DNA of 64,000 bases, taken from Acinetobacter sp. C26M. Its GTDB lineage: Bacteria; Pseudomonadota; Gammaproteobacteria; Pseudomonadales; Moraxellaceae. Made by a program: the position numbers and the translations under genes. The stretch covers positions 2,356,001 to 2,420,000 of the forward strand of contig NZ_CP098478.1 in NCBI RefSeq assembly GCF_023702675.1. The letters run 5' to 3'. Positions 39,297-41,288 of the stretch are shown here, piece after piece (within the stretch, counting starts at the first letter, position 1; every line of letters starts with the position of its first letter). Below the pieces are notes generated by a model. The model was not told the origin of the DNA. It saw only the letters and a program-made list of their open reading frames with translations, and did not search any database.

Positions 39297-41177
39297 TTAA
39301 ATAATCATCAGACTATTTTTCTTTTGCATCTGTTCAATTACTTCATGTGTATCAAAGCCCAAACGCCAGTATAAAAGCCCAAGAACATCTAATTCATCTT
39401 GGGTAATGATACGATCATTCCACAAACATCTTTCTGCAATCGACAAAATATTAAGGCGATCACGTAGCAACAAACCTGAGACATCATTTAAGATTTCCGC
39501 TAAATCCAGTGGCTCATCTGAAATATCGGCATAAATTTGCATTTCATCTTCAGTCAACAACATTTGTAAAATGCGCTCACGTACTTCAAGCTGATTTGGG
39601 CTATTGATCTGCTGTACATGTAGCAAGGCATCAATCAAATGTACAATCTGTGATTTCACATCTTCAAAAGCCGTAGGCAAATGTGCAGGCATTAAATTGA
39701 GCTCATGTTTCACACGCTCCAATAGCAATGCATCAAGCAAACCGACTTCACCGTCTTCTTGAATAATACATGCCAGCTTGGTTAAAAATTGACGTGCAAT
39801 ACTTGTTGGCATATGCCCAATATTTTTACAGGCATCATGGAAAATCTGCACATGAATACGTCCATCCAAATTCAATAAAGCATCGACAATCGCATGGCTC
39901 ACTGGCGCTTCTTGTGGGATAAATTCACGGTACTGACGAATCATCAAAATCGCGACCATCACCTCACGTGAACCAGTCGCAGTTTGCATTGCCCGTTGAA
40001 TTAATTCTGGACGTTTCTTATTCTTACGCACTTCTGGATTAAGTGGTTTGATTGCATCATTCAGTGCAAAACTAATTGGTGATAAACGCAATAAAGGCAA
40101 TGGCTGTGGAGAACTCCACGGCATGGTTAGCTCTGCACTTTCTTCTTCTAAAGAACGGAACAAGCTGAACAAGGGACGATTACGCAGCTTTCTTAAATTT
40201 TCTAATTGTAGATCTTGCAACAAAGTTGGATTTAATTCATAAATTCGTTCTTTAATGCTTGGATGGATATTCATCCAACTCTGAGGGCTCAGCGAGTTAG
40301 CAAAACACATATGCGAAATCGACTCAGAATAGGCACTATGGATCTGCGAACCAGAGTGATGCACGTAAATCCGCAACAAGGTCTGAATATTGGCATTATT
40401 GTTCATCAAGCGCATGGTCTTGAGATCATTACGGAAAGTACGACCACTCAATGTCAAATATTTAATACAACGGGTAATTAGGATACCGAGGCTACCGATG
40501 AGCCAAATGACCCCACCAATCGCAACGAAAATAGTTTCAAACTTATTTCGATAAGTCGTTGCATAAGGGTTATAACCCGCCTGAGCTAGCTTACTCCCCC
40601 ACTGGCTAAAAGTAGTTAAACCGCTATACAGAATTTTTAGCTTGGTATTTTCAACTGCTTCGCCAGATAAAATCTGATTAAATTCGTAACTGAGTAAACC
40701 ATAAAGTTCAAGTTCATCCAGATTTTGTAATGCACCCCAAGTCAAAATGATCACGATATCCTGTGATCTAAACCCTGCGGTTAAAGCATTCACCCCAACT
40801 TCATCGGGGAGCACATAAACGGCTGGCGTATCGATATCAAAACTTTTTGCGACCTGCTCAACGACCTTTAATGCCGTACTTTCTTCTGGCGTACTTTCAT
40901 CAAAAACCAAACGACGCGCTTTTAGCTGTTTTGCTAGCGAGTGACCACCTTCGCGCAGCACATAAAGTTCAGCACCTACCGACCAAAACAAGACTAAAAT
41001 AAGTAAGCAGATAAAGTATGGGCTAAGAACATGCCACCAAATCGGCTGGGTATAATCAAAGAAATGAACGACCAAACCCAAAATTAAATTGAGAATAAAG
41101 ACCGTCAGTAACATTGCAAGAAGACAGAAACTGACTGACCATGCAATATTCTTATTTTCAATTAAATAATGGCTCAT
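39297..41177 (-). CDS. Predicted M48-like pseudopeptidase with C-terminal TerB-like region
   Basis: 626 residues from MSHYLIENKN. Two N-terminal transmembrane helices (about 10-38 and 52-70), then a region resembling M48 (HtpX/Ste24) peptidases: NALTAGFRSQDIVIILTWGA followed by LDELELYGLLSYEFNQILSG, in the position where active members have HExxH. Here the motif reads YEFNQ (residues 164-168), so both zinc His are lost, and the expected downstream Glu ligand is also not evident. A transmembrane pair follows, then a long helical part whose end (ERCLWNDRIITQDELDVLGL) looks TerB-like. A regulatory or scaffold role is inferred. Confidence 0.72.
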   Translation of the reverse strand: MSHYLIENKNIAWSVSFCLLAMLLTVFILNLILGLVVHFFDYTQPIWWHVLSPYFICLLILVLFWSVGAELYVLREGGHSLAKQLKARRLVFDESTPEESTALKVVEQVAKSFDIDTPAVYVLPDEVGVNALTAGFRSQDIVIILTWGALQNLDELELYGLLSYEFNQILSGEAVENTKLKILYSGLTTFSQWGSKLAQAGYNPYATTYRNKFETIFVAIGGVIWLIGSLGILITRCIKYLTLSGRTFRNDLKTMRLMNNNANIQTLLRIYVHHSGSQIHSAYSESISHMCFANSLSPQSWMNIHPSIKERIYELNPTLLQDLQLENLRKLRNRPLFSLFRSLEEESAELTMPWSSPQPLPLLRLSPISFALNDAIKPLNPEVRKNKKRPELIQRAMQTATGSREVMVAILMIRQYREFIPQEAPVSHAIVDALLNLDGRIHVQIFHDACKNIGHMPTSIARQFLTKLACIIQEDGEVGLLDALLLERVKHELNLMPAHLPTAFEDVKSQIVHLIDALLHVQQINSPNQLEVRERILQMLLTEDEMQIYADISDEPLDLAEILNDVSGLLLRDRLNILSIAERCLWNDRIITQDELDVLGLLYWRLGFDTHEVIEQMQKKNSLMII

Positions 41178-41247
41178 TTCTTTCAATGTAAGTTTTCCTG
41201 ATTACATTGTTTCAGTTAGGGTTTCCGTACCCACTATCATAAAATAA

Positions 41248-41270
41248 AAAAGCGGGAAATTCCCGCTTTT
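41248..41270 (-). terminator. Terminator after purF
   Basis: An 11-base stem (AAAAGCGGGAA, one-base loop, TTCCCGCTTTT) followed on the minus strand by a long T run; it lies directly downstream of purF. Confidence 0.92.
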
Positions 41271-41288
41271 CTATAGATTAAGATGAGA

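Follow-up and report, generated by a model that had tools for sequence, protein, structure and literature searches.

A membrane protein of Acinetobacter with an M48 fold, a TerB-like tail and a dismantled zinc site is probably a pseudopeptidase

The window analysed here is the whole 64,000-nucleotide stretch of DNA from Acinetobacter sp. C26M. On its reverse strand lies an ATG-initiated, uninterrupted open reading frame of 626 codons (39297-41177), encoding a membrane protein with M48 peptidase homology and a long helical tail. Sequence comparison and modelling show an M48 fold that has lost three of its four zinc-ligand positions, a condition near-fixed across the genus, and no lemA gene beside it. 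The protein is likely a membrane pseudopeptidase that descends from a lemA-linked M48-TerB-like zinc protease; lemA would have been lost, the site then dismantled, and the resulting non-cleaving protein would work by binding. We infer from the sequences that cleavage activity was lost and that binding is the function. The gene and its active-site elements are as follows.

39297..41177, minus strand: gene of the putative M48-TerB-like membrane pseudopeptidase (ATG start, stop included; 626 amino acids; open reading frame and orthologues)
40674..40688, minus strand: degenerate active-site motif YEFNQ, residues 164-168, which is HExxH, mostly HE[FY]SH, in intact relatives (DNA and alignments)
40425..40442, minus strand: RTFRND, residues 246-251, replacing R-E-x-x-A-D, with Glu changed to Thr247 and Asp251 retained (alignments)
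40245..40265, minus strand: HPSIKER, residues 305-311, the M48 active-site plug motif HPx4R, retained (alignments)

The original prediction held that YEFNQ takes the place of HExxH, with both histidines replaced and E165 present. The DNA agrees, codons 40688-40674 reading tac gaa ttt aat cag. The prediction was silent on the loss of the third ligand, the retained plug and the missing lemA partner. T247 stands where intact relatives have the glutamate of REFLAD (mostly RE[FY]LAD), and in the clade of the window protein H305 alone remains of the four ligands. As described in an excerpt of PMC7950410, the HPx4R plug is conserved across the Pfam family and its histidine is the fourth ligand in BepA.

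Orthologue motifs were counted in 127 Acinetobacter loci from two overlapping collections, equivalent to 110 distinct frames. The four ligand positions read HQTH in 36 of these frames, YQTH in 33, HKTH in 27, HHEH in 2 and otherwise in 12. The common motif forms are HEFNQ (32), HEFNK (27) and YEFNQ (25), nearly all with Thr247. YEFNQ is the form of one clade, HEFNQ and HEFNK being the commonest of the others. The alteration proved to be an old loss that the genus shares, and not a recent mutation. An intact site was found among the sampled Acinetobacter only in A. puyangensis (L088, same genome as L038) and A. populi (L089). Several residues are close to fixation, namely D251 (110/110), R311 (109), H305 (106), T247 (101) and N250 (101), and HPx4R is retained in 103. 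The uniformity of T247, N250, D251 and R311 is not how a drifting site looks. In nearly all Acinetobacter examined the protein has lost lemA and zinc-binding residues and is nevertheless strictly conserved, which suggests a non-cutting binding protein. Given these losses, its proper place in M48 is that of a non-peptidase homologue, and for almost all examined Acinetobacter copies the label 'M48 family metalloprotease' misleads. Separately, P0146, a database protein labelled Avibacterium paragallinarum, bears an Acinetobacter-type HEFNK/SRTYRN motif; its source assembly is probably contaminated or mislabelled.

In 33 non-Acinetobacter loci the gene immediately upstream, in the same orientation, is lemA, and each of the 33 has HHEH at the ligand positions. 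From 115 genomes drawn evenly across the order, 62 family genes were obtained, with family matches defined by E below 1e-90; 61 have LemA 4-109 base pairs upstream on the same strand, the exception being the window's own gene. By pattern reading, HExxH, the third Glu and HPx4R are present in all 49 newly fetched lemA-linked genes, so the zinc site is intact in 82 of 82 lemA-linked loci combined. No LemA frame lies beside the M48 gene in any of the 127 Acinetobacter loci, nor in the window. L061, which belongs to a different genus of this family, has the gene order pyrD-cvpA-purF-lemA-M48, and the window and the early-branching Acinetobacter L088, L089, L091 and L092 show pyrD, cvpA and purF followed by M48. 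As the order in L061 is that of Acinetobacter plus lemA, the comparison suggests that lemA was lost in place in the Acinetobacter ancestor. The stretch concerned contains a terminator-like hairpin.

41178..41288, no strand: purF-M48 intergenic stretch, the position of lemA in L061, with lemA absent here (locus comparison)
41244..41274, minus strand: terminator-like hairpin of 14 pairs after purF (pattern scan, in which 4 sites were found and 2.1 were expected in shuffles)

Because this hairpin follows purF, the M48 gene may be transcribed independently. Among the lemA-linked loci, the LemA frame adjoining the intact M48 gene of L057 (6939-7535, minus strand) matches the NCBIfam model of the magnetosome protein MamQ at E 3.1e-21, with 75.9 bits against a cut-off of 250. 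The lemA-linked, intact-site M48 proteins of L068-L071 (genera g30 and g32 of the same family) have much longer frames (773-1055 amino acids), and L068 carries a long insertion between the active-site helix and the third ligand.

The history of the loss was followed on a rapidly built maximum-likelihood tree (80 rows, motif columns removed), which has some long branches. All 51 Acinetobacter rows form one group (support 100). A hand count that allows no regain gives five losses within the genus, in the main clade, L090, A. qingfengensis (L091), A. sedimenti and kin (L092-L094) and the L040/L066 pair. Separate events are supported by the different residues lost; A. qingfengensis reads HQYQK and the A. 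sedimenti lineage QQYVH, each with E247 kept. The zinc site was thus probably dismantled several times, in different residues. Damaged sites also occur outside the genus, in its neighbour in the tree P0141, whose third ligand is Trp, and in the homologue P0173 (HAFSH).

Selection was estimated by the Nei-Gojobori method as the ratio of nonsynonymous to synonymous substitution rates (dN/dS), and since mean dS was high (0.35 to 1.13) the ratios are rough. In the YEFNQ clade M48 part and tail both stand at 0.020; the corresponding values are 0.019 and 0.018 for the calcoaceticus-baumannii group and 0.015 and 0.047 for intact Alkanindiges. The other sets range from 0.009 to 0.092 for the M48 part and from 0.017 to 0.104 for the tail. 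By these substitution rates the protein, which has stayed full length, is under strong purifying selection. When intact homologues from outside Acinetobacter are compared with one another, identity is higher in the M48 half than in the tail in 56/56, 56/56, 104/104 and 156/156 ordered comparisons (L061 being counted in two of these sets). When the main Acinetobacter clade is compared with other lineages, the M48 half is ahead in 0/273, 0/78 and 2/312. Aligned in this way, the sequences show that constraint has moved away from the M48 half and towards the tail.

The domains and helices on which this division is based are listed below; the boundaries of the M48 domain and the tail were set by the analysts, and hydropathy is the best mean over 19 residues.

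40188..40889, minus strand: M48 peptidase-homology domain, residues 97-330 (Pfam; Ste24p/HtpX fold matches)
41058..41171, minus strand: predicted membrane helix 1, residues 3-40 (AlphaFold2; hydropathy 2.84)
40950..41024, minus strand: predicted membrane helix 2, residues 52-76 (AlphaFold2; hydropathy 2.35)
40575..40661, minus strand: long helix, residues 173-201, doubtful as membrane helix 3 (AlphaFold2; hydropathy 0.33)
40449..40544, minus strand: predicted membrane helix 4, residues 212-243 (AlphaFold2; hydropathy 2.53)
39300..39992, minus strand: conserved helical C-terminal domain, residues 396-626 (AlphaFold2 and tail comparisons)
39336..39671, minus strand: TerB-like part of the tail, residues 503-614

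By sequence the window protein is a weak yet clear M48 homologue. It matches Pfam M48 (PF01435) over residues 104-316 with 22.1 bits (cut-off 20.3), NCBIfam HtpX models down to E 5e-13, every one under its own cut-off, and the HtpX entry 3cqb of the PDB at E 0.003. The homology claimed for it was confirmed by these matches. The AlphaFold2 model (predicted local distance difference test, pLDDT, 86.4; predicted template-modelling score, pTM, 0.82) contains long helices at residues 3-40, 52-76, 173-201 and 212-243, and a structural search with this model returned the M48 fold (Ste24p/HtpX), so the predicted fold stands. The protein resembles HtpX, itself of family M48, in its fold, in having membrane helices both ahead of the active site and in the interval from HExxH to the third-ligand position, and in the HPx4R plug. 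HtpX, however, has all ligands and no long tail, and the window protein lies far below the NCBIfam HtpX equivalog cut-offs (best 49.1 against 245 bits). It is homologous over its full length to the LemA-linked M48 proteases of the order, the Alkanindiges-type copies having 40-42% identity. These differ in their adjacent lemA and intact HExxH/Glu, whereas the Acinetobacter form lacks lemA and has an intact site in the two exceptions only. The relatives, mostly with TerB-like tails, carry no more specific annotation than 'M48 family metallopeptidase' or 'Zn-dependent protease with chaperone function'.

The tail goes back to relatives whose zinc site is intact, and the TerB-like fusion is therefore not specific to the dead form. 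The Acinetobacter tail matches the tails of intact relatives over nearly the whole length (hhalign E 5.5e-39), and their profile in turn matches TerB (hhalign E 2.3e-7), with 8 of 25 of these proteins matching Pfam TerB at E<=1 (best 1.5e-6). Compared with TerB and TerB-like domains (PF05099), the window protein adds about 100 helical residues ahead of the TerB-like part. Among PDB entries, we take 2h5n to be TerB-like.

A scheme consistent with these data can be proposed. The ancestor would have been a LemA-partnered, membrane-embedded zinc protease, predicted to be active, with a TerB-like tail that recruited or sensed something. lemA would have been lost from the locus in the Acinetobacter ancestor, with the dismantling of the zinc site coming after; cleavage would no longer have been needed, and the tail's job and the shaped cleft still would. 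The M48 half would retain the shell of the peptide cleft, the zinc site now being a near-fixed polar pocket of Q/K168, T247, N250, D251, H305 and R311. The tail may recruit or sense a partner, and the membrane domain may anchor and present it. HtpX is an inner-membrane protein with its domains facing the cytoplasm, and by analogy the window protein is predicted to lie in the inner membrane with its domains on the cytoplasmic side. The regulatory or adaptor role of the original prediction may apply here.

Several observations weigh against this reading. The loss of lemA is one event in the sample, which makes its association with the loss of the zinc site a single correlation. Losing lemA is not enough by itself, since A. 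puyangensis and A. populi have no adjacent lemA yet retain every ligand. Five loci from outside Acinetobacter were compared for gene order, and purF is next to lemA in L061 only, from which the in-place loss was read; L057, L058, L062 and L065 have other neighbours. With regain allowed, the whole tree needs a minimum of 2 state changes, and some placements are weak (support 62 at the L091 fork, long branches for L040 and L066), so that any count of the losses is provisional. The intact Acinetobacter rows are ahead in the M48 half in 0/16 comparisons with Alkanindiges-like rows; this is the same reversal, and the shift therefore tracks the genus (and lemA loss), not the zinc site alone. The dN/dS of the M48 part differs by group, being 0.047 in the lwoffii-type HEFNK set and 0.092 in the A. 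sedimenti set; of the groups with intact sites, the pair of A. puyangensis and A. populi has 0.081 and Alkanindiges 0.015. Within the main clade the M48 half is ahead in 522/1482 ordered comparisons, with 72% identity in the M48 half and 74% in the tail; the near-equal halves indicate that M48 is not simply relaxed there. The activity of the intact relatives is likewise predicted from sequence.

Two parts of the original prediction stood incompletely. It had two pairs of membrane helices, and the modelled helices are at the places claimed, but the third (173-201) is doubtful because its hydropathy is 0.33 against 2.84, 2.35 and 2.53 in the other three. It also saw a TerB-like end; a Pfam search of the window protein gave no TerB hit at E<=10, and the Acinetobacter tails compared with the TerB profile gave a non-significant hhalign E of 0.062 (probability 0.9%), so that the label is supported by transitivity only, through the intact relatives. 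The doubtful helix and the single syntenic relative slightly lower our confidence in the proposed descent.

Other explanations were considered. That the M48 half is in slow decay, a relic membrane anchor for a conserved TerB-like tail with a cleft devoid of role, seems unlikely. It would account for the tail's lead in nearly all comparisons of the main clade with other lineages and for an M48-part dN/dS above that of the tail in the A. sedimenti and HEFNK sets. It would also suit the two most diverged species, L066 (G156) and L040 (G032), full-length Acinetobacter frames with about 19% identity to the main clade in the M48 part and about 32% in the tail, whose function is possibly relaxed or changed. 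Nevertheless, the M48-part dN/dS is about 0.02 in the window's clade, the M48 half of the main clade is conserved like the tail, and the nearly fixed T247, N250, D251 and R311 do not resemble drifting residues. A site rewired with other ligands (for example H164, H305, Q168 and nearby residues), giving a metalloenzyme and protease of changed chemistry, is very unlikely. E165 is kept in 93 of the 110 distinct frames and H305 in 106, and A. towneri (L145, L152), which has HEFNH with Thr247 and so the second zinc histidine inside the ligand-loss clade despite the lost third ligand, could offer three histidines. Yet the window's clade retains a single ligand, E165 is missing in 17 of 110, and position 168 is varied (Q 72, K 29, H 7, R 1, S 1).

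It is also quite unlikely that the protein pairs with HtpX in the same cell as a pseudoenzyme regulator of an active M48 relative. The genome does hold three other M48 genes above the Pfam cut-off, and a 313-residue HtpX-like frame has HEIGH. Pseudoenzymes are described as regulators of active cousins in metallopeptidase families in general (PMC11266112, in excerpt). No htpX, however, adjoins the gene in the window, the other M48 genes being elsewhere on the chromosome. The non-cleaving binding protein descended from a LemA-linked protease remains the reading we prefer.

Pseudoenzymes as such are well known. The iRhoms are eukaryotic membrane pseudoproteases of the rhomboid serine-protease fold, which keep that fold without catalysis and act by client binding; the window protein is like them in its kept membrane protease fold but has no homology to them. 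BepA, a periplasmic protein, has a TPR tail and not a TerB-like one. An excerpt of PMC7950410 presents it as active, with an M48 core, a helical C-terminal partner domain and the HPx4R plug, in which it resembles the window protein. Searches of one open-access library yielded no paper on the lemA-M48 gene pair or on any M48 pseudopeptidase, and a review of inactive metallopeptidases does not mention M48, HtpX or Ste24.

To our knowledge, LemA is widespread and has no agreed function. Its one-to-one pairing with M48-TerB-like genes at each linked locus that was read, together with zinc-site loss in the only lemA-less genus seen, suggests that LemA acts with the protease, which is testable. Acinetobacter would offer a membrane metalloprotease turned pseudoenzyme genus-wide, with two intact species as built-in controls. 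More tentatively, LemA could be a dedicated partner whose loss freed the protease from catalysis, the cleft (Q/K168-T247-N250-D251-H305-R311) and tail perhaps forming a genus-specific membrane receptor or adaptor. If so, Acinetobacter would be a natural experiment on the purpose of LemA.
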